The translations under genes and the position numbers were made by a program. DNA of 64,000 nt from Beroe forskalii (lineage: Eukaryota > Ctenophora > Nuda > Beroida > Beroidae), in NCBI GenBank assembly GCA_011033025.1, contig WFMF01000489.1, forward strand, positions 61,486-125,485. The letters are read 5' to 3'. Below, one piece after another: positions 578 through 58,203 of the stretch (the first letter of the stretch is position 1; each line of letters opens with the position of its first letter). The notes beneath the pieces were generated by a model, which was not told where the DNA came from, made no database searches, and saw nothing but the letters and a program-made list of their open reading frames with translations.

Positions 578-578
<1 letters not shown>

Positions 579-620
579 TTGGTCGATGTGTGTCACGTGA
601 CAGTGTAGGCGTGTGATTGG
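578..620 (+). promoter_or_regulatory. CCAAT / E-box / CCAAT module (copy 1)
   Basis: ATTGG at 578-582, CACGTG at 594-599 (11 bp later), ATTGG at 616-620 (16 bp later). It has the same order as modules elsewhere in the window, but the second gap is shorter than the usual 18-19 bp. It starts on the last base of the Smad stop codon. Candidate sites for NF-Y and a CACGTG-binding bHLH factor of the USF or TFE type, by motif only. Confidence 0.45.
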
Positions 621-943
621 CTAATGACTGTTCCAGTCCAGCGGGTGGCGTGTTATTGGCTAATACGCGCGTCAGTCCAACCCTTCATTGGCTAATATGC
701 TCACCAATTCCGCGTCCGATTTACTAACGTTTCATTGGCTAATAGACATGTCAACCTAACGTCTGATTGGCTAATAAACATGTCAGCCTAACGTCTGATT
801 GGCTAATAAACATGTCAGCCTAACGTCGGATTGGCTAATGAACATGTCAGCCTAACGTCTGATTGGCTAATGAACATGTCAGCCTAACGTCTGATTGGCT
901 AATAAACACGTCACGTGACGCACCATTTCCAGTGTCTCATTGG
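578..943 (+). repeat. CCAAT-box tandem array, about 32-bp unit
   Basis: ATTGGCTAAT (inverted CCAAT box, the NF-Y core) recurs about nine times. From about 732 onward the unit is a regular 32 bp (ATTGGCTAATAAACATGTC plus a GCCTAACGTCT tail) with only a few substitutions. Upstream units are more diverged and irregular in length. The array is bracketed by two CCAAT / CACGTG / CCAAT arrangements (578-620 and 894-943). It lies in the apparent 3' UTR or 3' flank of the Smad gene. NF-Y binding is inferred from the motif only. Confidence 0.85.
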
Positions 944-2212: not shown

Positions 2213-2220
2213 TTTGTCCG

Positions 2221-7128: not shown

Positions 7129-7136
7129 CAATCTTA

Positions 7137-7647
7137 TACTGGAGTAGCAGGGTGTAGTTGAGTGTGCACTTTGTTGGCCACAAAGTTTCTCGGTTCAGGG
7201 TCGTTTATTATGTTATTCTGCACCAGAATCACCTAGGTACGCAATTTGTATCGCTACTATGGACCCTGTGGGGCCATTTTTGTAATGCCCCTCAGGCGCG
7301 TATGGTGAAAATTCATATCTCTGTCCAGGAAGGTCGTAGAGACTTCGTTTTTAGCTCAAACGAATCGCAATGACCATGTTTTTATGCAATTTTCATCGCG
7401 AATATGCTTTAAAATGCTCAGGAAAAAAGTTATGGACCAAAAACTGGTTTTTAGTGTATCGCTTGCAAATTACACATGTTGATTCCATATCTCGGTCCAG
7501 GAATGTCGTAGAGACTTCGTTTTGAGCTCCAACAAATCGCAATGACTATGTTTTTATACAATTTTCAATGTAAATATGCCTTAAAGTGCTCAGAAAAATA
7601 TCTATGGGCCAAAAATTGGTTTTTCAGTGTAGCGCAAGCCATATATA
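7137..7647 (+). repeat. Left TIR of the 3.8-kb element
   Basis: Inverse of 10466-10966. It contains two internal, roughly 190-bp related segments, each with a TCCAGGAAGGTCGTAGAGAC / TCCAGGAATGTCGTAGAGAC phrase. The TIR itself therefore has an internal direct duplication. Confidence 0.8.
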
Positions 7648-21300: not shown

Positions 21301-24300
21301 TTCTCGTTTAGGTGTTTCCTTTTATCGCCTGGCCACTTTTACCCTTTCTTCAAGTCCTCAAAATCGAGTCCCATTACAAATTGGTAATAATGAGAGAGAG
21401 TTTTCGATCCATTATAAGTTGGCAGTGAAAGAGACTTCCTCTTTTTAGGTTGTGTACGATGAACAGCATGTTCATCATGATTACTTTCTCACTCTAAACT
21501 ATGATAATGACGTCACTCTTAACGTCTATTATCCGAGCTCTGATCATAATATCGAGAGTCATCTTGCAAATTTGAACTCCGTATATGTAATGTGCGATAT
21601 ATATAATTATAACAAACATTTTGATCGCCAATATTATAGTAAACCTTCCTCGAGTTCACATATAATTTATCTGCAATTATAATCCAATTAACAGCATTGT
21701 CTGATGTGTCATCACCGAATGGAGGGCTCTGATTGGCCGGGTTCGGGTCACGTGAGGCGTGAAGTTAATGTGATTGGTCGGATGGGTAGTGTGTTAATGC
21801 TGCGCGGACTGTGCTCGTAGGAGTTGTTTAGTGCAATTCTGGGTTTACTATACACTAATACAATGTACATAGATATACACTATACATTGATATACAATGT
21901 ACATAGATATACAGTATACACTATACATTACTATACAATTTTGAACATAAACGATTATTAGAATTTTACATATCAATCATGAAAACAAAGCTGAATTTGA
22001 GTTCGAACCCAGAATGCATCATGAAAATGCTGCGTTATTATGAAAGTCTCGAATCTCAGACTTTCCCAGACTATCGAATCAGAACTTCAGCAATTTCCCT
22101 TTCTTGGTATAAACATTTTACGCCCTTTCACGGAGAGAGACTTGATAATCAGCGAAGCTTTTATTTCGTTTTAAAGAAATTTCATAGAAAGCTGATCACT
22201 GATCAGCTAACTTACAATGAAATTCCTGTAGGTGATCAGAACGATCATGTCTACCCGTGGAAATGGTTTTTACTTATGTTAACATCTGGTCAGTGGTTTT
22301 CCCTTTCAGGACACCCAAGTAATTATACAATAAACATGCAAACATCATGTTATTTACTTGCATATATTCACTTGAAGTAGGTAAAGGCGTGGTTCAATTT
22401 GTCGGTCGTTGAACACATTAAAATAAAGTATATATGGTTTCAGGCACATCATTGACTCATTCAGAGATTTAATGTTTCACAATTTCAGAAAAACCTTAAT
22501 TCGAAATGAAGGTAACTTTGAGACTGCCACACAGGCATAAAACACAGAGACACGCCAACTAAAGACAGACAGGAAGACAACAAACAGTCAGGTAGATAGA
22601 CAGGTAGACATCAGACAGACATTCAGACAGACAGGCAGACAAAACTCACCAGATTTCTTAGAGGTGGAGGGAGTGGCAGGGGAAGAGGGAGGGGTGTGGA
22701 ACAGAGGTATGAAACAGACAGACAGACAGACAGACAATAGACAGACAGACAGACATACAGATAGGTAGACAAAACTCACCAGATTTCTTGGAGGTGGAGG
22801 GAGTGGCAGGGGAAGAGGGCGGGGTGTGGAACAGACAGACAAGTAGACAGGTAGACAACAGACAGCCAAAACTCACCAGATTTCTTGGAGGTGGAGGGAG
22901 TGGCAGGGGAAGAGGGAGGGGTGTGGAACAGAGGGGGACTGGTGGGAGGAGTGATGTTTTCTGAACCTGAAATGTGAACGTGTTATTTATGCTAGAGTTT
23001 TTAAGTGAATATTCTAGGTTTTCAATAACTGAGTAATCTAGGGTTTTGTGTTACTAATTGACCAATTATCAGCTCCATAATTTTTTGAACTTAGTCATTT
23101 TTTGAATCAAAACAAGCATCTATCTCATAGAAATTTTCTGTCTGATTTGCAGTTTTCAAAAACATAAGTTAGGATAAATTAGATTAAAATTTCTCAGGCC
23201 AATAACAATTACCGTATTAACTTTGACGAAAGTCAACGGCCGCTGGTATCAAATGAAGCATCTGGAGTATCCGTTATCGGTTGAATATTGAAAATTAGAA
23301 AGTGTAATGGCTCTAAAACTTAGAACCAAGTTCATAGAATTTAAATCTTGGTTAATTTGATATCATAGAAATTTGAACCAAACATTTGGATCGAATTCCG
23401 GCTCAATTCCCTCCAACTATGTAAAAACAAGTTAAAAGAAGTACATGATTTCGTTGGCTACAAATCCTCCCTGAATTGCAACACCTCATGTCACAGCAGT
23501 GAGTGCTTATTGGTGGTACTAGGTGCACCAGAACACCTGAACCAGCACCAGAACTCTCCTATCACCAGTACCCAAACTCAATTTCATAGTGGCAGCTAAT
23601 GCGGTGCATGCCACTCGGTTTATATTATATCATGGCCTTTGTTTGTATGTTATGTGCTATATGGGAGGTTCTTAAAATATGTAAAATGGTGAGCTGGCCT
23701 TCCTTTATATAATGTATTTTGCGAGGTCCACAGTAAAAACCCTCCTAGTTTTGCCAGTTTTTTTCTAACACAGTGTCACTCGTCGGCTGCCTGTTACCAT
23801 GGCGATACAGATATTGAATTGCAGATTATTAGACTTTTTAATAATAAATATACACCTTATATGTATGGGGGACGTGTAACCATTTGCAATGACAGTTCTA
23901 AATGAAGTTTTTTCGAATGTTACATTAACGAATTGATTAGTTCGTTAATGCAGTATTGTTTTCAATGAAATCTTAAGTCATTACTGAGAAGGGGCATAAG
24001 ATTCGTTATTAAAGGTGACAGACCATAGACTTGAGCTTCTTAGCACCAACGATTGGGTTTGTAGAACGTTAGAAGCAGAAATCTGAAAACGAATGGATTC
24101 CAATATCAATGGATTGCAAAAAGTGCGAATTGAAATTTAGGTTTAAACCCACCTAAGCTGACGTTGACATTCCCCAGTTTCTTGAAAGCTTGGAGGAGTT
24201 CCGGACGAAGCTCAGGGTCAATCATCCACCAGCTTCCTTTACCGCATTCCTGAAATTATATCAGAGGTGTTTGATTGATTGGGGGACGGACATTACATTT

Positions 24301-36300: not shown

Positions 36301-39300
36301 AGTAGAATATGTCCCATGAGCGAGTTACAGTGTTATCAGGATCCATGAACTTGGTGTGAAGAAGTAATGTGATTTTAATGAAGCAGCGGGTTTCACACGA
36401 CATGTCACATTCGTAATGAATTGGTTGTTTGAACCCAGGGTGCTGGGTGGGGGAGGAATTTGGTGGATTAGAGGGGGAAATATGCGGAAATTTGTGTCGC
36501 AGTATGATTTGTGGGCTTCTAAATCAGAAAACCAATTTTTGTCATTGTTTCTGCCCTAAAGTCAATTAATTCCTGTAAATAATCTAGATATGATTCAATC
36601 AGATATTCTAAAGTCTACATGACCTGGAATTTACGAATCGTATGAACCAAATGAAGGGTATTCCAGACAAAACTTATTCATTTCATCCATCTATCGGCCC
36701 TAGAGGGGCTGAAGAAGCCCTATTGAAATAAATGAGAATTCTGTCACTCGGATTTTCATAGTGATGTATCTATCATGACAAAGAGTGGTGTATGAGTGAC
36801 GAAATAGTTCCTACTTTGCGATTCAGATATTCACCGGGAGTCAGTTATTTCAAAACAATCTTCCCATCGGACGACCAGTATACTCAATATATCAAAACAG
36901 GCTCTGTGCCCTCGACGGTGATTGGCTGATACCCACCACGTGATACAGGCGCGTGATTTGATTGGTTGTCACTCCGCCAGGGTGTTTTTGCGGACATATG
37001 CTTACGATTAATCACTACTGTGCCCGATATATAACATGGCCTGGGAGCATATGTTGCTAATATTCACGTGATTGATATCCGAATATTGGTAACGGATCAT
37101 ATTGTAGCTTACCCGAAATCGGGCTATGAACGTACTGAAATTAATGTCACATTTAATGAATTAGAGCGTTAGGGTATTCAGTGTTTCAGGCAATTTCATA
37201 CATATAAAAACGATTTTCCTCTAAATTTAGCATTTTTCCAGATAAAAATCCACCGTTTATTCCACTGATCTCCTTGCTATTTCCAATTAAAAATGGCATA
37301 AAATGTTTCCGTTAGCGTTTGGGGCATGAGGATTTTTGGGACATTTCAGTTTAGTACCACCAAAGATCACCATGACATCCTCACACACCAAGACACTGCC
37401 TACGTCACTACTTCACCATTCTAAACCATGATAATGACATCACTTTTCAGCTGAGTATTTTCCATTCGCGCCCTGAATAACACACATAACATATTCGCAG
37501 CGTATCTAATTACGGAGCTCCTAGCACGTAACTATGGCAACGGCTTATCTGTTTCTTCAAAAACACACTCATGACTTTGGGAGCTGTGAGCGGACAAAAA
37601 TAGACCCTTTTCAGGGATCATTTGTACAAGTTAAATCATGATAATGACGTCTTTCTAACGTTCTATACTCTTGTGAAGGACACTTTATAAAGAGCTCAAC
37701 GAATCAGGATTATAAGTATTATCATATATATTATACTGCATTTAAAACAAAAAACACCTTTATATATTTACACAATTATGAATTATCGTTGACGGCAAAG
37801 TGACTGCGTTTATTTATGGAAATTTAGGTTTTTATATTTGATGAAAAATACCTTATGATAGGAAAAATCGGTGCTGAGATGTAAAAAAGGGTGGGATCAC
37901 CAAACAACGATCAAGTTTTAAAACCTCATGTGTCAAAAACGCCACAAAAAGTGAAATCCCAACCCCAGAATCGTCAGAATATAGTGAAATCCACGAAAAT
38001 TGAGACTTCAGAAAGTTTGATTGTCTGCTTGCTAACTGTCTGTAATTACAATCTATATCGCGCGCATACTACTACGCCTGTATCATCTAAGATTGTCTGT
38101 ATCATACGTGTGCATGCAGGCTTTTGTGGGCGATTGTTTATTATTATCATTGTTATTGTTTGCAGATTTACATTAGCGAGCAATCAATTTCACTGCCATA
38201 TTATGCACAGCATCATTTGATAAAAGCATATTATATGATACTGAAAAGAAGTATATAAATGATAAAAGCTTTTTGTGTCATTTGATTTCAAATTTGATTT
38301 TTGATTTTGAGTTAGAACCTTAGACCTTGAATTGGGTTCACTCATTCAATCAGTGCTGCAAAATATTTTTTACATAATTTCTAGAAATGTGCTCAGAATA
38401 GTAATTTGTATTGCAACGATCTGTCGATCTGCCATTGAAATGATCACTTCCCAAAATGCAGCGTCTTATCTCAAGAAAAAAGTCGATATTCCAAGAAACT
38501 GCAATAATCATCGCTGTTTTGAGATAAAAAGCTTGTCATTGATATAACGTGTGAGAAGGTGTATGTCGAATGTTGTACGGGGGATGGTAAAAGTGGGGAA
38601 AAAGTTTTGCAAAGAAGTAAAAACCTTTGAACTTGCACTGTATATAGGTCATGCGTTTATTGGATGTTCGCTTTTTTGTGAATTTACAGCCCAAATTTGG
38701 GCGTTCTTTTTGCTGAAAACTTACAAATTCAGTATTCATGCGTTTTTGTAAATGTGTAGTGTGTACCGAGGTGTCTTAGCTCCTAAGTGTTCGTGTATTG
38801 CGGTGACGCGGTACTCACTCACACTTTTTCATGAGGTGGGAACTAACACTAAGTTACACACATTTTGTACAACATTGAGTGTACATACAAGACAGGCTCC
38901 CTTGAAACACATTTAAACCATGTTTCAATGAATTTTTGCCCTATTCCATTGAAATAACGATGTAAGATGAATTTAAACTTGACTTTTCAATCTATACTCT
39001 AAAGTCTCCACTCAACGATCATTCACCATTTTAGCTGAAAGAAAAGTTGCCCTGATCAGTGATCAACGATTAAATCAGGTTACATCTATTGCATTACTGC
39101 TAAGAGTTTGAAATTGAGGTCATTATCATGATTTAAAATGACGAATTGATGACGTATACATACACTTAGAGAATGTGCCTTGAAAATTACACCATCAGAT
39201 GTACACAGAATTACTCTCCCCCTCCTCCTCCTCCTCCTCCTCCTCCTCTTGTGCACCTCTAACAAATCCACACACGCAATCCTCCACACACAAAAGTACT

Positions 39301-42300
39301 AATTTCACACATTGAACAATGAGCAGGATGATGGAGCCAGCATCACGATGTGGTGCATTAACCAATCAGAGAGATGGATTAGGGTCACGTGATAATCATC
39401 AACCAATCAGGGACAAGCATTGTTATGACCATCTGCAGGACAATGGGTATCGAAATCAACACTATTATACCCTCGTGCGTACAGCCACACCGTTTCCACG
39501 GACCAATCAGGGGCCAGGATTTACAGCACGTGACGGTTATTAACCAATGAGGGGACGAGGTGAGATGGTGAACAGCGGGACAAAGACAGAGAACACATTG
39601 CCTTGGGTATACTAGGGCTTACAGTGCACCTTGCACACTGGTGTACAGCTAGTGGATTGTTAGAAGTTGCGAACACAAACAGACGGCAAAACGTCATCAA
39701 TTCCCCATTCTAAACCCTGATAATGACGTCATTATCAACCTCTTATTACTCACCCACCACATGATAATTACTCTTGTGTCATTGTACTAAGCGGTGTGGA
39801 TCTGAGGGAAATGACTATAATTTTGAAAGTGAGAGACCGATTACCATCGGATGATAATAAGGGGCATTATATGAGACACTTTCCCTCAATCTGTGGTACC
39901 AAACTATCACGTTGAAAAGATTAGCATCTGGTGGGATTATGATGCACCTTCCATATTTCACCAAACCAACGATCAAGATATTTCTTTTCTGGACATAATT
40001 CATGATAATAGGGCATGATAGGAGGTTTTTTGGGTCAAATATGTGTGTTTTGACTCTCTTGAAAATTTAGGAGAGTTAAAAACAACCCCAATACGTCATA
40101 AGGAAAGTTTAACACTATCAATAACAATAGCTTATTCTAAAATATGAAATACAGTGACGTAATACTCATTCGATGATCACATGTAACCAGTTGTAATCCA
40201 TGATGAAATGCAATGATATGGGTGGTTTTCATATTTGTAAATATATGTGCGATCACTGGCAATATGTTAAGGAGTGGTTCAATTATATTAGGTAACATTA
40301 AAACGTTACCATGGTAATTGGTACGTTATTTAAACAAGTGATCATAACGTCATGTCATTCTCATTACATTCTGACGACAGAACAGCATTTTAAACAAATC
40401 CGGAGGTCCCATTCTGACAGCAGAGAGTGATACCATTATCGCGGTTTTAAATAACAGTGGGTTTTAATCATCTTAAAAATGATAGTTCCAATCTGCTAAA
40501 AGGTGGAGCCGCAATAGCTCTTATAAAATATTCTAAATTAAATGTCCCATAGCATCATTATTTTAGTTATGAGGGCAAAAACTGTGGTGAAATCCATGAC
40601 GTTAGGCATGAGAAACTTTGTTAGGTGAAACATTTTAAAAGTTTGCAGTTACCAGGGGACCATTTTCTTACAATTTTAAAGTTTTTTTGTGGAGAAAAGT
40701 GGACTTTGACATATGCTATTGAATATGCAAATGAGTTTAAGGAACATTATGCATGTTAATTGCTATCCAACGTTAGTTTAGAAAATATTAACTTTGCCCG
40801 TGAAAGTGTTCCAGAAAACTCCTGTGTTTGAATAATGATGCAAACTCTAACTCAATCTCTCTCTCTCTCTCTCTCTCTTAAAGTTAAGTTTTAATCAAAC
40901 ACGTAGCTTTTGTCTTCATTTCCATTCATTCATAGAAAATTAATCTCCATAGCCTAACAAGACAATACTATTAACACTAGCACACACTGACACACTAGCC
41001 CAGAAAACACCAACTTCCCAACACTTCCCAATGTAATATTTAACTCAATAATAACCTCCAATTATTTATTAACAATAAGACAGTCAAATTGTCACGTTGC
41101 TTTAAATTCATCACAAAGACCTGTTCCGTACATATTAATCTAGTGAGATATCCATTGTAGTGTGTATAATAACACAGTCAATATATAACAGGGGTTGCGC
41201 TGAACGATCGGTAGAAGGTTGTTATGTCATAATCATGTTTCAGAATGGTAAATTGTTGACTTAAATCTTTTGATTGATGAGACACATGTATAGTAGTTTC
41301 ACAGGATGGAAGGAGTCGGTTGGTCGGTGTTAATAATCTCTATTGACACAGACCCAATTGGTATATAAGAATTACGATTGGAACACTCCTAGCTGCAGAG
41401 GTATAATGCCTCCTCAGGAGATAACAAATGAATGTACCTTGCCGGTGTCTACTGGGTAGCAGGGAATGGTGCCAGGAATTAATTGGGGCTATTCCCACAA
41501 TGCAGTGTCTGTGAGTAGAGGTGTAGAGGGATCATTAATAGACAATGGGTACCAACTACCAAGCTACCAAGCAATATACAAAGTATGTCAAGATGGATAT
41601 ATGCCAAGCAGTGTCAATGTCAAGGTCAAGGTCGGGGAATGATGAAGGGTAGATATTATCGTCAGAATTCATCATTCTGAGCCGTGAAAATGACGAAACT
41701 TTCGGCAGTCTGTTATTCGTACATTCTTCTAAAAGTGGGGCAATTTAAAAGTGAATTAAGCTTTTTATTCTGATGACCGAATAATTATATAGTTGCCATG
41801 ACAAACTACTGAGAAACTCTGGTTCAGTGCCTTTGGACCGTGGTATATAATTTGATTGAAATGACCCCAGTATAACACACATCATAATATTGTCTACTGA
41901 CGTCAAATTTACACATAATGAGTCTGATAGTATACCCGTGCAACTACCATTGACTTGCGTCTTTAATTCTGAATTAAGTTTCGCTTATCTTATTGGTACA
42001 GCTACCAAATTATAGAAGTCTAACTTAATATCTTAACAATCCTCCCCCTTCAATCTGAACAGTATCTGATGTAAAACAGTATCTGATGGAAAATGGAACA
42101 CATTCAAATAATGAATCAGATGGAACTTCAACTTCCCTCAGAAATCCAGACAAATAAATATTTGATCCTAGGTAAAATCCTGTCTCAGCATCACTTCCCA
42201 ACCTAGAACTTTGATTTTCTCGAAAAGAATATTTAGGTGCTGTAAACGGAATTCCCGAAGGCGTAAAGTGGCTGGATAAATTCGGCTGACAGTGGCTAGT

Positions 42301-45300
42301 CTTATAATTATAATTATTGGGTATATTATGGGGAAATTCCTACAAATATAATAGCCAAGTAAACATTCAGTGACGGGCCTTTATTAACACTAAACTTGCT
42401 GTTGTCATGGTAACCAGGATACATATAATAAAATCAATATATTCTCTACTACGATAAGATCAAGATAATTTGACCAATCACAGCCGGTTATTTGGGTCAC
42501 GTGAATCGAACCGCCACTCATAATTCAAGCAGTCATTTGTCAAGTCTTAAGTTGGAGCGGCAATAATGTGTAGGAGAGTCGAGTGCTTTCAAAATAGGCA
42601 TAATAAAAGGGCTGGTACTCTCTGTGAAATAGCCCGCGCCCGAAAAGCAGATGCTCAAAGTGACGTAATGGTCAGGGTTTAGAGTAGTGAATTGATTACG
42701 TGTGCCCGCCTAATTTCCAAGGGCCACACATAGTTTTACATCCATAGCTTGAGTCTAGTTCCATCAAAAGAGGAGAAATTAAATCCCGGAATTTGTAAGG
42801 AATTTACAGACAAATTTACATTCTGGAATGGGGATCTGAACTCGGGAAGCAAGTCGAGTATTTTGCGCCATGTAAATTCTATTTTAATTTTCATCTGCTC
42901 CACCAAGACGAATGAAATGCGGTAAACTTTGCCGACGACGCCCGATATCTCGACAAATTTACAAAATTCATTACAATTAAAGTCACAAGTTTTTATGGTA
43001 ATTTCAGGGTGCGTGGGAGTTCATGTATGCTGGAGATAACACAAAGACAGTGAAAACATCTCTCCAATTTCCGACTGTAAAATCAGTTGCAGATCTTGGA
43101 AAAAGGCCGCTCTGGGTGATCAATCCATCATGTTGATAAAAGATGATTGCGTCGCATTCATCGTGAAATTTTGCTACGGACATCTTATTTAAAATATATC
43201 TGAAGATTGGTTTTTGGGAATTGCTCGGAACGGAAGAAACAATTCATTTAACTAGATTAAAATTAACCTTCCACGGAGGGTTACGAGTTGATTGACGATT
43301 GTAAATTTTAGTATTTCTTCTTGGTAACTGGTGCCTCCAATTGAATTTCATCGTTAAATTCAAGTCATTTCCATTGACATTAGGTTGTTGAGATGACGAA
43401 GTTTTCATTGTTTAAAAAGCCACAATAATGACGCCAGACAACGTATTTTTGAGGCTGAATTGTAAATCCTCATTGACAAGAGCAAATGAATTGCAGAACC
43501 ATTATGCCGTTAAAACAAATGAATTGATGGTAATTTGTAAACGGCATGTTTTAATGTGAGGTGTGAGTTATTTGTTGGGTTAATTCAGTCTAGAAGAGGG
43601 CGGATTGGAATTAAACATATATTTAATCGGGGAAAAGAGACACGATTTAATAAAACTTCAGGATTTCTAAGGAATATTTTCCATCGTAAACTGTCGGTGT
43701 TTCCAATGATTGGTGTTGCCATAGCAACGGATATTTACCAGGTACTGTGTTTTATACTGTGTTATAAGTCCACGTGGAGTTTAATTCATGGTAAACGTGT
43801 ACGTGACAAGGACGCTTAGCTCAGACAAGCCGGCTGTTACAAAATAACACGATCTTCCTTACAGATTTGTGCTGATAACGGCTGAGCAGCGGGACACTGG
43901 TTGATTCAAGGGAGTTTCGCTTCACCTCAAAGACTGAGTATACTTTGCACATAAATTAAACTAGGCTTTAACGCATTTTCAAAATTATTTGGTAATACGA
44001 TGCTTAGTCTCTGTAGCTCATCTTAAACTATCTTTGACTTGCTCGTTATAACGAAGAGGAAGATTATTCTAGGCACCAGGTTTGTGAGTTTAAAGACCTT
44101 ATAACCATATTAATGGCGGCATTGGGGTAATCAAAATTAACCCTTTTACCTACCCTAGATCCGTAATCATCTCGCTTCTCATCAGAAGAATTTTTCTCAA
44201 CGAAAAAACGCTTTTTCTGCAGTTTTTTGTGCACATAAAATGTCCAACTTATATCCTTCCAAGTCGAAGAAAAATGTTTCACATAATTGAAAAGTGAAAG
44301 GGTGTATAATAATTATCACAATACTTGACACACACTTTATGTAGCCTTTATATCTGAATTCAGTACGTCTATAACCCACATAATACGGATAAGTATATAG
44401 TAATGTATTGTAATGTGCACATCAGCTGAATTTACTGGGTTTATAATGCATGCATCATATAATCATACAAAATATATATTACCAGTTTCCATGGCAACCA
44501 CAGGAGAAATCAGCAGACCTCCTTCTCCTCCGTTTTTATGCCCATCATTTTGCGTTATAATTGCTTTCACAATAAGTCAGTTTAACTGGGAATACGGAAG
44601 GGAAGTCACGTTTAGTAGAAAGATACACCAGTACATGGAGAATAGCAGGTTTAACGTCGCCAACGCACTATTATAAGGCATGATAATGACATCATGGCAG
44701 GATGCCAGTGGGATAGTTTTAAGGGGTCCGTCTAGAAAAAAGCTGTGGAGTTAGTGAAGTCTGGATATATGTGAACAGTGAATTTGTAACTTTTAAATGA
44801 TTGAGGAGTGAAGACAAACGTGTAGTAGACACAATTACATGTGGCCGGTTTATCATTTATACCAAGTTTTGGGATGTCCGACTATGCGAAGGAATGAAGT
44901 TGAAAATGCTGAAACTTTAACAAACCAACATAATATCCATTCCTTGCAACAAAGAATGTTGCTTAGCTTTCCAAATGGATGACCGCACTGTTCACCACTA
45001 GCTTCTATTCGAACCCCATTATTTCAATGAACAGTAGTTTCGCTTCATATGTACACCATCATTACAATTTCTTTCAGACACAACAGCACCTTGATAATAT
45101 AACCACAAAATGGTCACATGACCTTCTGTCTCTGGTCACATGACTATGTGACTCTGGTCACATGACCATCTGACTCTCTGACTCTGGTCACATGACAGTG
45201 CTGTTAATTTGCCATAGCCGGGAGCAAACACACTCAGCCTACCATTAGACCCTATATGGACACTTGTAGTAGTTGCAATCCCAAATGAAATGCAAGCAGG

Positions 45301-47292
45301 TACGAAGGTTAAAGATCTAGTCTGTGAGCCATTATCTAGAGAGCAGGATGGGAAGGATGAAAATTGAAAAAGTGTTAAAAATGAAGAATCTGCCTTAAAG
45401 TGCGTCTTGAATCTTCACTGAGCAAATTAAAATAGTTGATGAAGGTAATAACTTCAGGTACCTAATCCTAATTTCACAAGATTTTGCCATGGGCTGTAAT
45501 TGCAAAAAACATTCTTCCAGGATGATTGGTGCCTAGGGATTTTGGGAGCTAAACCAGTTTGAGTGTTTGACCAGAATGATACTGACCAATCGGTAGTCGC
45601 CATCATTCTATTTCCCGGAAGTTATTTATCCGATCCCTTCAGAACATTTTGTATACTAGTCAGAAGTCATGTATAAACAATCAGATACATGACCCGAAAC
45701 ACTAGATGGGATCACAGTCCATTATCATAGCATTGTGTAACGTGTATTTGACGGCTTTCAAGCAAATACACGCCATTAACCTGGTGTAAAGTATCCTTTA
45801 ATTTGATTTACCCGCTCCTCAGATTAGATGAGCTGATCACGTGATATCGTAACTGCCTTCTGATTGGACAATGGGAGCTAGACCGAGACCGCATTGGTCG
45901 GGGAGGGAGTTTTGTATGTCAGATTCTTATGTAAACAATGTTGGCGAGTGTACAACATAATATAATTATATGTATATTACCGAGAGTCAAGTTTGGTGTC
46001 TAAAATATTTCTGAAATAATATAACAGACATGATTCATATTCATCTTGCATACATAATATGAATATTTTGCTGTCTGTTTTAACTTTTAACTCCAATATG
46101 AATGACTGAATGATGAGATCAATTAACTTTTATTACAGCCATTATCAAAGGAATGTGGCAGGTAAATGAAGTGATATCTTGCGCAGCTAAAGTGGATATT
46201 TTTAGCGCTTATCATTGCAGGGTAAGATGAAATTATGATTTTCCATGAGCATGCATTTATAGCAAAATTTTTGCCAAATTTATCTGTTTCCCGTCTGACA
46301 AGAGAAAACTGACTTATTATTTGTGAATAATTGTTATTGTGACCTGATAATGACTCACATGAACTTACAGATGATTTCACACGGATGACTATGATGATGA
46401 CAGGCATACTTTTAACATTGCATACGAAAAACATAACAAAAACACGGACATTGGCCAAAAGCCAGTAATTAGTCTAGAAACATGATATAGTGAGAAGTTT
46501 GTAGAAATCAAAACCTGGTAAGATAAGGAGCAACTACTGTAAACATGACAAACTGACAAAACTCACCAATCGTCGATCTTTGCTGATCTTCTTGAAGCAT
46601 CTGTTCATAGAGAGGTTCTGTCGCACCGTGTTCTTCCAGCGCCTATCACACAACTGATAATACGGATACCGACCCAAAATCCAATCATAAATGTCCTTAA
46701 CTGTAACCTTCTTAGCAGGGGAATCCTCAATTGCCATGAAAATAAGAGTAGCGAAAGAGTAGGGTGGTTTGCTGAACTTCGTTCTCAGAGTTTTCTTGTG
46801 CGGCTGACATTTGTTCGTTAGTTTGTACGGGTGGCTTCTGAGCGGTGCATTTCTTTGGGGAGGTGCAGGGGATCCAGGCTCTTGTTTGATAAATCGTCCG
46901 TGTATCTTAACAGCCCGGATTTTCTTGGTTGGAATGAGATTTCTGACTTCATCAAACCGAGGTTTGAGTTTGAAGCTGCTGGTCATGGAAGAGAACCTGG
47001 CGTTGCTGGCTGCAGCTCGGGAGTTCATCCGGGGCGGTGGCGGAGGTTTGGAGACGACAGGTCGACCACACACATTGTGCAGCAGGTTAGGAGACACTAG
47101 CCAGCTTAGAGGCTGCAGATCATCGTCAGTCTTCGAAAGGAGGCTGAGTGGTTTGTTCGGGGGGTGGGGGACGGGGGCAGGTTTGCTGGGGCGTTTACTG
47201 GGCGAATACAGGGCACCGGGAAAACTTCGTGATAAATCTGCACCAAGAAGTTTGTTGGGCAAATCACTCTTCTTGATTGTCATATCATCCAT
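18160..47292 (-). CDS. FoxN2/3: FoxN2/3-like forkhead transcription factor, six exons
   Basis: On the - strand the coding exons are 47292-46567, 24249-24153, 22966-22877, 21067-20963, 18964-18910 and 18355-18160. Together they give 1269 bases (422 aa), and every GT/AG junction keeps phase. The N-terminal [16 protein letters not shown] matches the conserved motif ahead of the FoxN2/3 forkhead domain. The forkhead (from residue 175, [20 protein letters not shown]) is split by intron 1 and resumes with [20 protein letters not shown], like the GKGSLWCIDPEYRQNL block of vertebrate FOXN2/3. A Ser/Pro-rich segment and [12 protein letters not shown] follow. FoxN2/3 proteins are nuclear, largely repressive regulators. 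Oddities: the usual recognition-helix His is Gln (VRQNLS), and intron 1 is 22.3 kb. Paralogue identity is inferred. Confidence 0.9.
18910..18964 (-). CDS. FoxN2/3: FoxN2/3 exon 5
   Basis: A 55-base exon, TTATTTCAG acceptor and GTATAT donor, encoding [17 protein letters not shown]. It is too short for ORF finding and was recovered from splice-site phase with exons 4 and 6. It is low-complexity Ser/Thr/Asn linker sequence. Confidence 0.8.
18965..20962. other. FoxN2/3 intron 4
   Basis: No exon is seen. It contains dispersed CRE-unit copies at 19444 and 19973 (both forward) and an X-box-like CCATGGAAAC near 20090. It also has a near-perfect GC-rich dyad around 20790-20830 (CACCGCGCGAAACCGCC / GGACTCCGCGCAGAGTCAAC), which is not otherwise explained. 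Confidence 0.5.
20963..21067 (-). CDS. FoxN2/3: FoxN2/3 exon 4
   Basis: A 105-base exon with a TGTTTCAG acceptor and GTGAGT donor. It encodes [17 protein letters not shown] and [10 protein letters not shown]. The acidic-alanine helix [12 protein letters not shown] joins in frame with KKS from exon 3. This is the most conserved-looking part of the C-terminal half. Confidence 0.85.
21732..21777 (+). promoter_or_regulatory. CCAAT / E-box / CCAAT module (copy 3)
   Basis: ATTGG at 21732-21736, CACGTG at 21749-21754 (12 bp later), ATTGG at 21773-21777 (18 bp later). It lies in FoxN2/3 intron 3, about 220 bp from a dispersed CRE unit at 21508. Confidence 0.45.
21840..21945. repeat. TATACA-type short tandem repeat
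   Basis: ACAATGTACATAGATATACA occurs twice with about 40-bp spacing, flanked by further ACTATACATT phrases. It is a local AT-rich minisatellite within FoxN2/3 intron 3. Confidence 0.6.
22560..22935. repeat. Exon-derived triplication in a CAGA microsatellite
   Basis: The 3' 55 bases of FoxN2/3 exon 3 plus its GTGAGT donor occur three times: the genuine exon end (22871-22932) and two near-identical 62-bp copies (22774-22835 and 22644-22705). All are separated by (CAGA)n microsatellite DNA. The copies differ from the exon by one or two bases. Each carries an intact splice donor, so intron 3 starts with two decoy donors 97 and 227 bases downstream. Both distances would shift the frame if used. 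Confidence 0.85.
22877..22966 (-). CDS. FoxN2/3: FoxN2/3 exon 3
   Basis: A 90-base exon, ATTTCAG acceptor and GTGAGT donor. It encodes [19 protein letters not shown] and [10 protein letters not shown], a Ser/Thr-Pro-rich region like that after the forkhead in FoxN2/3 proteins. Its 3' half has been duplicated into the intron (see the 22560-22935 entry). Confidence 0.9.
24153..24249 (-). CDS. FoxN2/3: FoxN2/3 exon 2 (forkhead C-terminal part)
   Basis: A 97-base exon, TTTCAG acceptor and GTGGGT donor. It encodes [20 protein letters not shown] and [11 protein letters not shown], the wing-2 side of the forkhead domain. It joins exon 1 in phase 0 after DRRL. The intron is inside the DNA-binding domain. 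Confidence 0.92.
24656..24889. mobile_element. Short element ended by inverted CRE units (MITE candidate)
   Basis: 234 bp between a forward unit (TGACGTCATCATAATAAC) and a reverse unit (AACCATGATAATGACGTCA). The inverted similarity extends some 45 bp inward (CGAGTTGATGACGT against CACAACAACTCACC). It contains an X-box-like CGTAACCGTGGCAAC at about 24795. It is the smallest facing pair in the window and the best candidate for a complete terminal-inverted-repeat mini-element. I found no target-site duplication. Confidence 0.5.
27018..27223 (-). promoter_or_regulatory. CRE + X-box + CCAAT / E-box / CCAAT cluster (copy 4)
   Basis: In order: TGATAATGACGTCA ending at 27025; GTTGTCATGGTAAC at 27083-27096 (X-box-like); CCAAT at 27178-27182; CACGTG at 27202-27207 (19 bp later); CCAAT at 27219-27223 (11 bp later). 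A third CCAAT lies near 27250. The right arm keeps the same CCAAT module at 58158-58203. The sites match NF-Y, RFX, CREB/ATF and USF/TFE consensus words; binding is not shown. Confidence 0.5.
28590..28723 (-). promoter_or_regulatory. CCAAT / E-box plus X-box-like cluster
   Basis: CCAAT at 28590-28594 and 28622-28626, CACGTG at 28647-28652 (20 bp after the second CCAAT), and an X-box-like GTTGTCATGGAAAC at 28710-28723. The second flanking CCAAT expected 11 bp after CACGTG is absent. Confidence 0.4.
29385..29420. repeat. (TCAA)n microsatellite
   Basis: CAATCAGTCAATCAGTCAATCAATCAATCAAT. A shorter version lies at the matching place in the right arm near 55990. Confidence 0.8.
32125..32412 (+). 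promoter_or_regulatory. CRE + X-box + CCAAT / E-box / CCAAT cluster (copy 5)
   Basis: TGACGTCATTATC at 32125; GTTACCATGGCAAC at 32279-32292 (full X-box palindrome); ATTGG at 32367-32371; CACGTG at 32383-32388 (11 bp); ATTGG at 32408-32412 (19 bp). The right-arm copy near 52995-53050 keeps the same 19/11 spacing. Further CACGTG sites follow at about 32600-32650. Confidence 0.5.
33525..33766 (+). pseudogene. MULE transposase N-terminal remnant (FLYWCH zinc finger)
   Basis: Starts [18 protein letters not shown]. The FLYWCH pattern is clear: [18 protein letters not shown], then CRARITT, then EHSNHD. FLYWCH fingers are a common DNA-binding module of animal MULE transposases. The ORF is interrupted by the inserted LINE-like segment at TCATACAT (about 33758), after which the transposase sequence resumes in a different frame at about 35008. 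Confidence 0.8.
33768..35007 (+). mobile_element. LINE-derived insert carrying only ORF1
   Basis: The segment lies between two TCATACAT words and ends with a strong hairpin (AACCCCCACGGGGGTTTTT) followed by (TCAA)n. A 3' hairpin plus simple repeat is typical of non-LTR retrotransposons of the CR1/L2 group. It encodes one ORF1-like protein but no endonuclease or reverse transcriptase. It is a non-autonomous copy, either deleted or HAL1-like (ORF1 only), sitting within the MULE. Confidence 0.65.
33871..34716 (+). CDS. LINE ORF1-like RNA-binding protein, 281 aa
   Basis: Coiled-coil N-terminal half ([20 protein letters not shown], then a long Lys/Glu heptad region). After that come the [10 protein letters not shown] motif and an RRM-like domain ([53 protein letters not shown]). 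This layout is that of L1-type ORF1 proteins, which trimerise through the coiled coil and bind element RNA. It is an open frame of full length for the family. No ORF2 follows. The most likely status is a mobile-element protein, not a host gene. Confidence 0.75.
   Translation: MYNKEYSMHSVLEMERDLEKSLQEIMKVKQLGELSQTVLKQANKDTVIKLVNVLTSSLKRSGELLRAAGADIDQLQADQIKLQKDLLAEKEESVQSKDKELKEMKKTVTKEMKSWADVVSKNAEITPSVIKEAVKSAVEEDRGEEDRSHNVMVYGLEEKDRGNEQNLQLRTLLKELDSCIDLDKVTYARIGAVKEGSVRPVRVTFEKKDFVPWVLSRSRVLKDSDQFPSVFLGPDRSVEERQAHRKLVEEMKKKRLEIPDRVFFIRQGSVCSKPRHTDDQD
35008..35386 (+). pseudogene. MULE transposase C-terminal remnant
   Basis: [20 protein letters not shown] continues the linker that follows the FLYWCH finger. 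The sequence then jumps straight to [36 protein letters not shown] and [19 protein letters not shown], the conserved tail of FLYWCH/MULE transposases. About 350-400 residues holding the DDE catalytic core are missing between these parts. Confidence 0.8.
36258..37442. mobile_element. Element ended by inverted CRE units, cut by the duplication breakpoint
   Basis: Left end GTGACGTCATTATCATGG with TTTAAAATGCTGAG; right end TTCACCATTCTAAACCATG then ATAATGACATCA. The ends are inverted with respect to each other over about 45 bp. It contains the CCAAT/E-box/CCAAT module at 36921-36965. The inner breakpoint of the large inverted repeat (37046) falls inside it, so the right arm keeps only one end (near 51775). 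Confidence 0.45.
36921..36965 (+). promoter_or_regulatory. CCAAT / E-box / CCAAT module (copy 6)
   Basis: ATTGG at 36921-36925, CACGTG at 36937-36942 (11 bp), ATTGG at 36961-36965 (18 bp). In the right-arm copy (about 51063-51108) both CCAAT boxes survive, but CACGTG has changed to CATGTT-type sequence. Confidence 0.5.
39219..39249. repeat. (CCT)n microsatellite
   Basis: About ten CCT/CTC triplets in a row. Confidence 0.9.
39362..39407 (-). promoter_or_regulatory. CCAAT / E-box / CCAAT module (copy 7)
   Basis: CCAAT at 39362-39366, CACGTG at 39386-39391 (19 bp), CCAAT at 39403-39407 (11 bp). It has exactly the spacing of copies 4, 5 and 8, with unrelated bases between the boxes. Confidence 0.55.
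39503..39548 (-). promoter_or_regulatory. CCAAT / E-box / CCAAT module (copy 8)
   Basis: CCAAT at 39503-39507, CACGTG at 39527-39532 (19 bp), CCAAT at 39544-39548 (11 bp). It lies 141 bp from copy 7, in the same orientation. Confidence 0.55.
40855..40879. repeat. (CT)n microsatellite
   Basis: About twelve CT dinucleotides in FoxN2/3 intron 1. Confidence 0.9.
42401..42503 (-). promoter_or_regulatory. X-box plus CCAAT / E-box (half module, copy 9)
   Basis: X-box-like GTTGTCATGGTAAC at 42401-42414, CCAAT at 42474-42478, CACGTG at 42498-42503 (19 bp). The second CCAAT, expected 11 bp further on, is absent. A CRE-unit copy (TGACGTAATGG) follows at 42661. Confidence 0.45.
45110..45200. repeat. 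Tandem GTCACATGAC E-box repeat
   Basis: GGTCACATGAC occurs four times within about 90 bases, joined by CTCTG/TGACT-rich linkers, with roughly 24-bp steps. GTCACATGAC is the palindromic M-box/CLEAR-type E-box recognised by MITF/TFE family factors. The run lies 1.4-2.2 kb 3' of FoxN2/3 exon 1, inside intron 1. Confidence 0.65.
45838..45895 (+). promoter_or_regulatory. E-box / CCAAT half module (copy 12)
   Basis: CACGTG at 45838-45843 (within TGATCACGTGATA), ATTGG at 45863-45867 exactly 19 bp later, and a further ATTGG near 45891. The position where the 11-bp-spaced CCAAT should be reads GATTA. Confidence 0.4.
46567..47292 (-). CDS. FoxN2/3: FoxN2/3 exon 1 (N-terminus and most of the forkhead)
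   Basis: 726 bases, 242 codons, from ATG at 47292 ([20 protein letters not shown]) to a GTGAGT donor after DRRL. A Pro-rich stretch ([11 protein letters not shown]) and a SUMO-like site (FIKQEPGS) precede the forkhead. Helix 3 reads [17 protein letters not shown]. An in-frame TTG at 47295 precedes the ATG but is not a likely start. The 5' UTR and promoter must lie in the interval shared with VPS13B. Confidence 0.93.
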
Positions 47293-52369: not shown

Positions 52370-52392
52370 GCGTATGTGTGTGTGTGTGTGTG
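52370..52392. repeat. (GT)n microsatellite
   Basis: About nine GT units. The matching position in the left arm (about 33020) is not a GT run, so this is an arm-specific expansion. Confidence 0.8.
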
Positions 52393-55300
52393 CACGCCGC
52401 GCACTAAAGTAGACACTCTAATGTCAACAATCCACCACTCTAACGTGTGATAATGACGTCACAGCAGCCAGCGTAGTGTGTTCAACTGGAGTATAAATTA
52501 TCATGCGGAGGTGATGAAATCTTGCGATACATTCGAGTAGCTTTGTAATTGAGAATATAGTACAATGTGTGTGTAGGAAGGGAAGACTGTAAAATGTGTG
52601 CAAAAGTAGTCGTAAAGTGAGAATTTAGTACTTTTTACAATGTGTATCTGTGTTGCTGTGTACACTGTAAGTTTATAAAATGTGGCATGAGATACCAGTT
52701 TTTACTGTATACCAGTATACTTGTTTATACCAGTAAGTGTATACCAGTACGTGTATACCAGTGTATATTTATTTACACGGAAATTTACATTTGTCACGTG
52801 ATGTGTCACGTGTTTCTAACTGTCACGTTTCCTGGCAACGTTTTAGTTATCATCTCCTGTTTTGTGAAGTGATATACACACGGAATTTCATGTTGTAAAT
52901 TACATGAAATTCAGGTTGATATATGAAGTACAAAGCATTCCTCGATTGTCATAAAAAGCGACTTCCGTACCTCATGTCAACAGTTTCGGATACCTCGACC
53001 AATAGAAACACAGAACGCGTGCCACGTGACTTACCTCCACCAATCAGCATTGAGCACTGAAGTAAACGTGATATATTGCCTGTGTAGGCATTGCCAAATC
53101 AGCGCTTGTCAGACTTGTTGCCATGGTTACCATGGAATATTGTCAATGATGATAAAAATAATATGTGTTATTTAATATTTACCAGTATATATTTTGTAAT
53201 AATAAAGCAACTGTACTCAAACAACGGAGAAACCTTGCTCAATAATAGGCGATTAAACGTTGTCAACTTACCACTTTGACCTCAGATAATGACGTCACTA
53301 AAACAACTGATTCATAGCGCTCCAAATATTGCACGGGTGTCATTATTGTCATCTTTGAGGGACTATTGACTATTGTAAATTCATGAATGGACATTTTGGT
53401 GGCTGAAAGCCGAAGCTACACAAAAACATCTTTCTGAACCTTCATTGTCTCTACTGAATGAATTCTATTCATGAATGGGACAATTATAATCTTTACACTT
53501 GGAAAGGACTTGCACAAATTTTGTAGTTACAAATTTATATTTGAAGCATAATTTTATGCCAGAATTATGCCATGGCTCTCACAGAAAAGCATTGTAGCAG
53601 CACAATTCTTCAGTAATTATTGAAGTCAGTCTTTCTAACAATTGGAGGACAGACTCTAACTTTTAGGAATGAAACAATCACCACGTTTCCATTTTTTGTA
53701 CGTGGTTAACTTTAAAAGTCCGTGGTTAAGAATCCATCAAGGTTCAATAAAATCATGTTAATTATTAAATGATATTTAACATGAATTAAATAATATTTAC
53801 ATGAATATTGATGTTTTTGCCTAATTCGATTACATTTTTGTAAGTTTTATTTCACAGAAATACCCCTCCACAATTGTAGACGTTTAATCCCTGGCATAGT
53901 TACCAAGTGAATCAGTTATTATTATTATTTGTCACTTCTGAAATAAAATAAAACTAAAATCATCAGCTGTTGTCCTTAAATATAAAATATAGGCATTCAC
54001 GTTTTTTGAAATTAGTTTTGAAATTTTCATAGTAGCTGAACAATGGACATTGTCGATTGTTGAGGGTTTGTCGGGAAGAATACCGTAATGGAAGGGGTAT
54101 GGAGCTTAGGAGAAATCGCTGAAAAATGAAGATTATTTCATGTGATCAGTATCACATTGAATATTCGACAGCAGACAAAAACTGCCACTTTCATCCCTGG
54201 TTTGTTCAAAGAACTCCATCAAACAGTCCATGTAAATTAATCCCAGAACGTTGGAGTTCCTGCATTAATAATAAGGCCCCGTGGCTATCTCTGTGCGCTT
54301 ATGACCATGATTCACTTGAACCTAATAATTTTAATTATAATCTTAATCGACTTTACTCCATAACCACATCTCTGAGACTCATCCAAGTGTATTGCTGGAG
54401 TACATATAACCTGTTTGTTAATCGTCCTTCAAGGTACTATAAACCATGGTAAAAGTGTTTGACACCAAGCTGACAAACTTAGCACTTCTAAATTTGTTAT
54501 CAATTTCATCATCATCCTAGGCCTTTATTAAGTGATTACTGATGTCATTTAGTAAGTTTTCAGACAAAATTATTACATTTTTAGCTGAAGATCGAACCCT
54601 CAATACGATAATTTTGACCTGGCAACGACTCAATTCAATTAGACACCTTTATTTCATTACGTATATATTATTTTATTATTTTGTTCGGTCTAAAACTGTC
54701 TAAAATACACTTTTGACAATACAAATGCCGTCCGACACCACCAAAATATCTGAAGCTCTAGACGTGCTGGCGAATTGTAGCTCAACCTTATATTCCTGTT
54801 GTTCTCAAGATACTCACATGATAAATCTCGTTTTAAAACTCACATATATATAAACAAAATGACGTCATTATTATGAATTATAAAGGTGAATTACAGGCAT
54901 AAAAACTCATGTTTTCCATTGGCGGCGTGTCCTGGCATATAAAGATACAGGGTCAGTATACCACCCCAACAAGCTGTGTGAGTGTTATCACCATGTGCAG
55001 GGTTACCATGGTAACCAGGGGAGAGGAGGAGGAGGAGGAGGAGATAACGGTAATTATTTCCACCTGACGTAAACTCTTCATGGGTCCTTAAGATGTACGT
55101 GATAGAAGGGGAGGCAGGGCCTTAATTTGGGGTCACGTCTCGGGTTTGGGAAACTACGTTTTCGATCAGAAATATTCAACTAAAATTTGGGATTCTAGGC
55201 TATATTTTCGCCCTTTTTTGGTTATTACAATATGATAAATGCCGGACCTTTTAGCGAGCGGCATGATTAAACATGTAGATCAGATCTTTGTTTTCACCCC

Positions 55301-58157
55301 TCACCAAAATGAATTTGACTTAAAGTGACGTCATTATCATAGCTAAAAGTTGGTAATTGAATACATCAATTTTCTACTGTAGGTGCGCCTTTGGTCTCTT
55401 TGACCCTTTCCTCCTTTGATCAAACCACCCTGGTAATGTACAGACAGAAGGTATAAAAAGGTGTCTTTTAATTGATATCCGTGGTTTTGATAATAATGAT
55501 ACGAAGGATCTGCTGTAAGGATCTGTGGCACGAGTTTCAGGAATATTTGATATTTAATTTGATGAGAAAATCTGTAAGTTTCAGGTTCTAAGTGGTAGAA
55601 TTTCATTGTAATTTCCATGAATAAATCAAAAAATTCTCTCATTCTAGTTTCTACTCCATTTTCGCTCAAAGTTTGAAAATCAAGCATCGATACGTTAAAA
55701 TTTCACTCGAAATTAAATATCTTGATGAAAAGAAAATCATTACGGAATGATTGCTTTAGTAATTATCTGCGAGTCTTGTGACACTTCACTTTTCACTGTC
55801 ACACACAATACGAGAAATGATTTGAATTTAAAAGTTTTCACGTGATGAGCGAGAATTAGCTTAGATATGAAAATACCTTTTCTCATTTGATTGGATGTTT
55901 TCGAATATTATTAAAGGATGGAAATTTAGGGCTTCTCCTTCTTAAAAGTGAAAAAAACTGTGGCCTTTCCTTGGAAAAGTAGAATATATCAATCACATTT
56001 ATTGATTGATTGATTGTTGTTATACTATCAATCAATAATTCATTAAATTGATTGACCTCTGAGTCATGTACATGACATTTATATTTCTACCATTCTTGGG
56101 GCTACTATAAGACTGTCCAAATCCACGTACTTTAATAGTGAAATTATTCCGTAAGGTATGATTGTCGTTTTACATATAAACCCTAAAAATCTAACCACTC
56201 GTCTCGTATCCCTCACAAATAAAGGATATAATTGACAGTGACGTCATCATCATAGCTTAAAATAGAGAATCAATGACGTATGTCTGCTTTCTTGTCCCTC
56301 CTCCGACATAATCCCAGCATGATTTTCCTCTCTCCGAAAGACTTGACATTATCTGAGCCCGGTTACCATGACAACCATTGTACGACGGAGGGTAGACCAG
56401 ACTCGGCCTTGTTGCATTAAACTTCCACAGACATATTACATGTATTATTATGATATACTTGAATATACATAGAATAATATATTGAGTTTATATTAATTAT
56501 ACGTTTATTTTGTATATAATACAAGAATAATGAACATGAAAGTTTTGTATAGTTGTTTATCTTCGGGACGAACATCTACTCTGTTTACTTACCTACATGC
56601 ATGTATAAAAACAGTAGAATGTTTGGTGGACTCCAAAACTCTCCAAATGTTTAGTTAAATGGTTTCCATGACAACCTTGGTGCTTGCAGTTTTGACATGC
56701 TCACGTCTAGATTGCCCTATATGTGCAGGTCACGTGGGTCTGAAAGTGAGCTCTGATTGGTTGACGATAGGAGCGCCAAGTGTTCTGATTGGTGGAATTG
56801 TCTCAAAAACGATGGTAATCAATACTCGCGCGCTCTCCTGGTTACTTATAATTCGAAGTATGTCATTCCAGGGCTGCTCTTGTCAGACCATACTTCACAT
56901 GGACTGTTTTATGAAGGAGCAAATTCACATACGCCAATGTTTTATGAAGGAGCAACTTGTGTCCCTCTCAGTTCACATTAGAACACACACTGTAAGCCTG
57001 TTTTAAAAAGGAGCAATTCACAGCAGCTCCATGTGTTTCCCTGTTTGTGCAATAAATGTGTGTAAACTCTAATGTGTACGAAATTGTGTAACCTTGGAAT
57101 CAGATGTGTCAGTAAATGTTTCAACCGGCGGATCTTTAGTCAAAGTGAGTTGAAATATCGTAGCAGAAATGTTTTACTAATATTATAGATGTTAAAATGT
57201 TTCTGGAAATAGATTAAAATTCATTTGATATGATTGGAATTTTAAGAACGTTTTAAACACCGTATCATTAAATGTTGATACATGAATTTGGGTTTCATCC
57301 AAACCGAGCTTGATAAAATACTTTAAATTTTAAACTTTGCGATCGAGCTTGTATACACGTGTCATTTCTGAGAATTTGTCAAAATTTCCGCAATTGGAAA
57401 GCGTCCTCATTACATCATAGAGATTGTTACCCTCGGACAAGAAGAATGCAAGATGCTTGGTTCACGCTCTCATTGAATCTAGCACAAATTCCACTTATTT
57501 CCTGGGCGGGTGACGTGTGACAGAAGCACTGATTATAACATGTTGCATGGCAGATGTAGTATAGTGTACAGGAAATACATCTGTAGTCTGATTACAATGT
57601 ACAATGTACATTGGAGTGTATAATCTCATGTTTCAAAAAGTTAGGACGTCACTCCGATATGATATCAAGGGATGACGTGAAACTCTGACACTGATATATG
57701 ATAAGAATTACCGGAGAAATTTCCAGAACTTCTGACTTTGAAATTCAAACTTTTATATTTTTATCGAGATTGAACAGTCAAACCTTAATCGAATTACGGT
57801 AGTTCACTAATAACTATTTCATTAGTTTTCAGTTCCTCTATAATCCCTCCTTTGACCCTTTGAGATCCGGCACCGTGCTATGATTTAAATTTGGTGCTGT
57901 CTTAAAATAGCACCCTACTAATGATTACCATCATTACATCAGTTCTCGGCAAAATATTGGCTGAGTTAATAAAGTAGAGGTGCTTTAGCATCTTCAGTTC
58001 ACCCTTGTAAATCATGATAATTATGACAATCTCGTGTGTTTTATTTTCACCCATATATAATTTGTATCGTACCTGACAAACGCTGTAATTGACAGTTCAC
58101 ACCAGTTTATATATTCATTAATCATGATTGGTCTCCACAGATTATCCTGGCCATCTG

Positions 58158-58203
58158 ATTGGTCCTCCTCGGTCACGTGATGTAAATCCTCGTCTCCCAT
58201 TGG
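58158..58203 (+). promoter_or_regulatory. CCAAT / E-box / CCAAT module, right-arm copy of copy 4
   Basis: ATTGG at 58158-58162, CACGTG at 58174-58179 (11 bp), ATTGG at 58199-58203 (19 bp). All three boxes and both gaps are retained between the arms, while bases in the gaps have changed (for example TCCTCCTCGGT here against TTCTCTTTGAT in the partner). Confidence 0.55.

Follow-up and report, generated by a model that had tools for sequence, protein, structure and literature searches.

The window analysed here, a 64-kb stretch of DNA, carries the C-terminal coding end of an R-SMAD (480-578) and, on the minus strand, a forkhead exon (46537-47376) whose forkhead domain was confirmed by Pfam. Neither structured RNA nor tRNA was detected in the window, using Rfam at the gathering threshold and ARAGORN, respectively. 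Surrounding the forkhead exon is a series of sites in which one CACGTG is placed between two ATTGG boxes, hereafter called modules and denoted by the number of bases in the first and second gap. As listed in Table 1, these are accompanied by half modules and by a tandem array that also carries ATTGG. Except for the one at 578, none of the modules adjoins a Pfam-recognised coding exon among the 107 of 141 open reading frames of at least 67 aa that were scanned.

Table 1. Modules, half modules and the ATTGG tandem array in the window (11/19 and similar: bases in gap 1/gap 2)
Feature	Positions	Strand	Remarks
Exact 11/19 module	27178..27223	-	inverted-duplication partner of 58158
Exact 11/19 module	58158..58203	+	partner of 27178; boxes all intact; gap 1 holds 4 of the 5 differences
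Exact 11/19 module	32367..32412	+	inverted-duplication partner of 52999
Exact 11/19 module	52999..53044	-	partner of 32367; absent from the first-pass annotation
Exact 11/19 module	39362..39407	-	outside the aligned duplicated arms
Exact 11/19 module	39503..39548	-	not within the aligned duplicated arms; 39362 module lies 141 bp away
11/18 module	36921..36965	+	right-arm copy at 51063-51107
12/18 module	21732..21777	+	
11/16 module	578..620	+	its first A doubles as the final base of the R-SMAD stop codon (576-578)
13/21 module	894..943	+	at the end of the 32-bp ATTGG tandem array
Tandem array, period 32, ATTGG once per unit	724..913	+	period equals the bare NF-Y pair spacing
Half module CACGTG-N19-ATTGG	42474..42503	-	
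Half module CACGTG-N19-ATTGG	45838..45867	+	
Half module CACGTG-N19-ATTGG	56731..56760	+	right-arm partner of 28622
Half module CACGTG-N20-ATTGG	28622..28652	-	left-arm partner of 56731

All nine triple sites reported in a first-pass annotation of this DNA were recovered at their positions and with their gaps, and the exact module at 52999 was added as a tenth. The two one-sided 19-bp forms that it had named, at 42474 and 45838, are likewise present and are joined by another at 56731 and a 20-bp form at 28622. The exact 11/19 arrangement occurs six times in the window and in none of 100 dinucleotide shuffles. With gaps loosened to 8-22/10-28, there are ten matches, against a shuffle mean of 0.02 and a largest value of 1 in the same number of shuffles.

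These sites are not all independent. The window contains an inverted duplication in which 25254-37046 corresponds to 50982-64000, with 5.3% mismatch across 9030 aligned bases and unmatched stretches at 33073-35689 in the left arm and 59726-63585 in the right arm. Two pairs of exact modules, 27178/58158 and 32367/52999, are copies made by this duplication, so that the six exact sites represent at most four independent places (the two pairs, 39362 and 39503). Full independence of 27178, 39362 and 39503 cannot be taken as given either, since the latter two are close neighbors and the spacers of the three agree at 15-16 of 30 bases, compared with a mean of 10.9 among nonredundant sites of the genome. 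For the duplicated pairs, the earlier description of the gap bases as unrelated between copies therefore does not hold. In the right-arm copy of the 36921 module, both ATTGG boxes are retained and CACGTG is lost, which indicates that selection on individual sites is not strict. Given that the window copies are partly duplicated or similar, the main argument for fixed spacing comes from genome-wide counts.

The genome search covered an assembly of 216 Mb in 1134 contigs, with reversed patterns and a CAGCTG middle box as controls; the sites listed for closer analysis are the first in contig order rather than a random sample. Genome-wide, the pattern ATTGG-N8..22-CACGTG-N10..28-ATTGG has 705 matches, compared with 48 for the reversed pattern. 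The exact 11/19 form accounts for 167 of these (1 when reversed), while a flat spread of the 705 matches over the 285 gap combinations would place about 2.5 in each. Examination of gap lengths, as the first-pass annotation had proposed, reveals a peak at 10-13/18-20 among the listed matches. Among the first 100 listed loose matches, 94 of them unique, gap 1 measures 10-13 in 73 and gap 2 measures 18-20 in 76. The 12 combinations of 10-13/18-20 hold 64 of the 94 sites and the 255 off-peak combinations hold 21, an enrichment of approximately 65-fold per combination. With CAGCTG as the middle box, 64 matches were found genome-wide; after removal of copies and near-copies, 3 of the 48 that were kept fall within 10-13/18-20, where about 2 would be expected if the distribution were flat. 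Chance or composition as the source of the module is ruled out by the window shuffles, the reversed patterns and the CAGCTG control. The ATTGG-CACGTG-ATTGG module is a real, genome-wide composite element, and its middle position favours CACGTG over one other E-box, CAGCTG.

The two halves of the module are also enriched by themselves. ATTGG-N1..31-CACGTG was found 4986 times (2349 reversed), and 42 of the first 100 listed have a gap of 10-13; CACGTG-N1..31-ATTGG was found 5148 times (1915 reversed), and 32 of the first 100 listed have a gap of 18-20. In 73 sites, the lengths of gap 1 and gap 2 are uncorrelated (r=-0.05, p=0.68) and gap 2 is the tighter of the two (variance 0.53 compared with 1.40). 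As the gaps vary independently and differ in tightness, the 41-bp period between the CCAAT boxes looks like the outcome of two rules, each centred on the E-box.

A separate count considered direct NF-Y-type pairs, of which there are 2382 genome-wide compared with 1113 for the reversed pattern. In the first 100 listed, with arrays collapsed, 33 of the 59 pairs lacking an E-box are spaced at 30-32 bp; all eight pairs containing CACGTG are spaced at 39-51 bp, seven of them at 39-46 bp. Tandem neighbors were collapsed regardless of contig in this set, which introduces a small error. These figures bear on whether the helical phase of two NF-Y sites 41 bp apart is all that matters, the E-box being incidental. 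A spacing of 41 bp is known for NF-Y pairs in human (PMC4982600), and some pairs lacking an exact CACGTG are indeed spaced at 40-43 bp (5 of the 59 listed; another count gives five at 41 bp in module loci). Such a reading is nonetheless highly improbable: the pattern with CAGCTG instead of CACGTG shows no such peak, the listed pairs without an E-box lie mostly at 30-32 bp, the two gaps do not offset each other and the N19 half is enriched without its partner.

Modules are sometimes chained. Of 55 modules, 9 have another CACGTG one period upstream (bin -25..-21) and 4 have one a period downstream (+55..+59), where chained modules enter the count both as module and as neighbor.

The module consensus starts with CTCTSATTGGYYGR, continues over five unconstrained positions to RTCACGTGAY and, after four more such positions, ends in AT.C.G..YTCTSATTGGYYG; in the 52 nonredundant exact sites the 3' part is spelled AT.C.G..YTCTSATTGG. 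It was drawn from two sets, these 52 sites (58 before collapsing, window included) and the 81 nonredundant sites among 100 listed, with the outer ends taken from the 52-site set only. The sequence TCACGTGA is present in 47 of the 81 sites. Strong conservation extends from about -5 to +49 in the 52-site set, in which the flanks beyond the module share no common sequence apart from a faint echo of the spacer letters out to about -19. Because conservation stops at these limits, the sites are not copies of one element. Some of them are related: the collapse of 100 listed exact sites to 81 means that about a fifth are near-copies, dispersed and nearly identical, and certain pairs match over short stretches of flank outside the module. 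The first-pass annotation had considered the conserved promoter core of a very old repeat family as a possible origin. A single ancient repeat family whose promoter core has decayed into the module is very unlikely, since near-copies are a minority, no flank consensus accompanies the boxes, gap 1 ranges from 10 to 13 while the boxes all remain intact, half sites are enriched independently and spacer identity averages only 10.9 of 30.

At 33 other module loci, 125 of the 257 open reading frames of at least 66 aa were scanned and a Pfam match was obtained for 3, one of which is an ML domain. An alternative proposal, that the sites form a regulatory array over a putative FoxN2/3 locus, finds no support in their distribution: the 705 loose matches show that modules are not specific to the forkhead locus, though they are concentrated there, with 10 in 64 kb (8 with duplicated copies merged) compared with approximately 0.2 from the genome mean.

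A second and commoner element, the CRE sequence ATGATAATGACGTCA, has 4260 exact copies in the genome. Its loci resemble those of the module in their content of open reading frames, with frames of at least 120 aa in 9 of 26 CRE loci and 17 of 33 module loci; GC is elevated chiefly over the central 150 bp. Five of nine module places on two contigs lie within 10 kb of CRE elements (p=0.05), and the approximately 134 kb around modules contain five copies of the CRE 15-mer where about 2.6 are expected. The triple module was not found in 30 CRE loci, and the link between the two elements is weak. The CRE element was also considered as a general hairpin and rejected as such. Long matched arms were detected by score in 3 of 60 sites, a fourth looking alike, and the remaining sites score near the cross-site mean (own 6.2, cross-site 5.5).

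Candidate proteins for both boxes are encoded in the genome. NF-YA matches occur at two places, and the 24 HLH matches include a MITF/TFE-type bHLH (best PDB match MITF, 93 bits) and a USF-type bHLH (best PDB match USF2, 64 bits); MAX-like and ARNT/CLOCK-like bHLH exons were also seen by eye. USF and MITF/TFE prefer the flanking letters seen in RTCACGTGAY. Human USF1/2 and MITF are positioned 10-12 bp 5' of CCAAT, while MYC keeps no fixed distance to it (PMC7793273). The earlier proposal of NF-Y with USF/TFE-type bHLH partners is supported by the presence of the genes, by a gap 1 of the same length as the USF/MITF-CCAAT distance in human and by the fit of the letters flanking the box.

The middle factor may nonetheless vary. 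TGACGTCA was found in the E-box slot, at gaps equivalent to 11-13/19, in 6 of 27 kept matches (39 in all), and one of these six also contains an overlapping CACGTG. As TGACGTCA is able to fill the slot, the middle factor need not always be a bHLH protein, and a bZIP dimer may be accommodated there as well. Together with the MAX-like and ARNT/CLOCK-like exons, these few cases lend some weight to the same architecture being built around another CACGTG binder (MAX, the ARNT/CLOCK class or an unknown one) or a bZIP factor in place of MITF/TFE or USF. We regard this as unlikely, though it deserves consideration, as the letters around the E-box are those that USF and MITF/TFE prefer, and a distance of 10-12 bp is published for USF1/2 and MITF while MYC keeps no fixed distance (PMC7793273).

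Read on the CCAAT strand, CCAAT-N19-CACGTG-N11-CCAAT would constitute a composite transcription-factor element, with NF-Y predicted to bind each CCAAT and a bHLH-zipper dimer of the MITF/TFE or USF type the E-box between them. The contacts of NF-Y with DNA run from -7 to +17 relative to the first C of CCAAT (PMC4982600). Between two NF-Y trimers 41 bp apart, some 16 bp (positions 18 to 33) would stay uncontacted, and the E-box would occupy positions 24 to 29. NF-Y would bend the DNA and open chromatin, and the bHLH-zipper dimer would dock edge to edge, contacting the NF-Y trimers on both sides. Such a unit would act cooperatively as an enhancer or promoter and could be lengthened into an array in which NF-Y sites and E-boxes alternate, repeating every 41 bp or so. 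We place the probability at roughly 75% that the module holds a bHLH-zipper dimer between two NF-Y trimers and is sometimes extended as a 41-bp array, its occupancy, cooperativity, regulatory activity and target genes being inferred.

The regulatory DNA of animals is generally regarded as seldom having a fixed syntax of several factors. The module provides one composite site with measurable gap tolerances and hundreds of occurrences, mostly in unrelated flanks, that follows spacing rules as in human cells. The host is probably a ctenophore, and unlikely to be Mnemiopsis leidyi itself: a ligand-binding piece of a glutamate receptor has as its best PDB matches ML032222a (115 bits) and 4zdm (84 bits), both ctenophore proteins, ahead of a Drosophila-type chain (66 bits), and its identity to ML032222a does not exceed 48%. 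With the entire protein, however, full-length vertebrate kainate receptors reach higher total scores, and receptors of this kind are present in other phyla. Should the host be a ctenophore, the spacing rules may be as old as the root of animals. In addition, the sites offer a ready genome-wide test of whether contact between neighboring factors sets enhancer grammar.

Several known regulatory systems resemble the module in part. The ER stress element, CCAAT-N9-CCACG, also has CCAAT at a set distance 5' of a CACG half site, but the spacing here is 19 rather than 9: among the first 100 listed half sites with full CACGTG, gaps of 9 and 10 occur 2 and 4 times, compared with 11, 15 and 6 times for gaps of 18 to 20. 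In the S-X-Y module of MHC class II genes, a palindromic factor site is followed by ATTGG at about 18-19 bp. This spacing is similar, while the middle site here is CACGTG; RFX-like sites were seen by eye near a few window modules at no established fixed distance, and TGACGTCA occupies the slot in a few cases. The element of the CLEAR network, the lysosomal network of TFEB/MITF, has the core GTCACGTGAC, and the commonest letters of the module spell this same sequence.

A close likeness is with the stereo-positioned NF-Y/USF and NF-Y/MITF pairs of human (PMC7793273 and PMC7046753). Boxes, orientation and the 10-12 bp distance between E-box and CCAAT are alike, the E-box being in fixed orientation at that distance, and both factors are encoded. 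The module differs in having a second CCAAT on the other side, at 19 bp and with less variable spacing, and in its triple and chained forms. Human direct pairs of CCAAT have maxima at 31, 41, 52 and 63 bp (PMC4982600); the classes near 31 bp (30-32 here) and near 41 bp recur in this genome, within the covered range of up to 51 bp. According to the same paper, the human distal peaks at 24 and 41 bp come from LTR12 repeats, whereas here all eight listed pairs that contain CACGTG are spaced at 39-51 bp. At the TXNIP promoter, which combines a tandem ChoRE with two CCAAT boxes, NF-Y occupancy is a prerequisite for recruitment of Mondo/MLX (PMC2791861). This is a precedent for NF-Y preparing a site, as a bHLH-zipper pair needs it for recruitment to the E-box, although the CCAAT boxes of that single gene lie between two ChoREs, one of which is inverted. 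The loop-anchor motif bound by CTEP1/2 is likewise an abundant regulatory motif in a ctenophore genome; compared by description only (PMC12221973), it is GC-rich with two CpG.

No description of a CCAAT-CACGTG-CCAAT triple was found in the portion of the literature searched, which does not imply its absence from print. The view that the arrangement had not been described holds, within that literature, for the alternating array and for the 19-bp side with its tight spacing, and does not hold for the 10-12 bp pair and the 31- and 41-bp CCAAT pairs, which are known in human. We suggest only tentatively that an alternating edge-to-edge NF-Y/bHLH-zipper array with a 41-bp repeat is built from half rules (11 bp; NF-Y pairs near 31 and 41 bp) common to human and this early-branching animal, with a tight 19-bp side unrecognised in other animals. 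While the tight side, the sandwich and the 41-bp chain represent a variant for which the literature searched yielded no description, the parts of the module follow spacing rules known in human.

In addition to the ATTGG-N11-CACGTG-N19-ATTGG module, the window carries a second, commoner composite element, hereafter the CRE element. The word ATGATAATGACGTCA has 4260 exact copies in the whole genome vs 1 for the reversed word; within the window it occurs 14 times and TGATAATGACGTCA 18 times. The core of the element (approximately TCATCAATTCACCATTTTAANCCATGATAATGACGTCA) is a CRE with an adjoining GATA-like box. Copies occur in clusters, and their neighbouring sequence is mostly unrelated from one to another. 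As a word, TGATAATGACGTCA had no match in the literature searched. One subfamily, seen around position 1500 at three loci elsewhere in the assembly (L047, L054, L056), has long matching inverted arms, GAGAAATAGGCGG...CCGCCTATTTCTC, and is perhaps a palindromic repeat.

Features of the window, with their positions
Feature	Position	Remarks
CRE element copies	14651-58368 (e.g. 21508, 27017, 29157, 39724, 51765)	also genome-wide
Inverted duplication, left arm	25254-37046	
Inverted duplication, right arm	50982-64000	
Insert, ~2.6 kb	33073-35689	left arm only
Unpartnered stretch	59726-63585	right arm; no counterpart in left arm
Minisatellite	60697-61439	inside unpartnered stretch
TRIP4	5344-6930	one single open frame
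Tandem repeats, inverted pair	7276-7649 and 10460-10834	period 172-173
Tandem repeat	724-913	period 32

The forkhead exon is flanked by a large inverted duplication. Its arms share ~92% identity when gaps are counted, with a mismatch of 5.3% across 9030 aligned bases. Close to its ends the left-arm insert has 17-bp repeats (GGACATTTGTCCGACAC / TCGGACAAATGTCCGTG), and it contains an ORF with a FLYWCH zinc finger; it is probably a transposon that arrived later than the duplication. In the minisatellite of the right arm, 16-bp units (ACCAGTGCACTCTGAC) are grouped into higher-order arrays, each ~90 bp long.

Two glutamate-receptor genes at other loci of the assembly (L087, L089), whose products are 971 and 979 aa long, likewise each occupy one single open frame. 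Together with TRIP4, these are intron-poor genes in an animal genome.

Tandem repeats are also found outside the duplication. The inverted pair is complementary up to 99%, with ~3 kb between its members. In the period-32 repeat, each unit holds one ATTGG, and this period matches the spacing of bare NF-Y pairs, which is mostly 30-32 bp among the genome matches listed.
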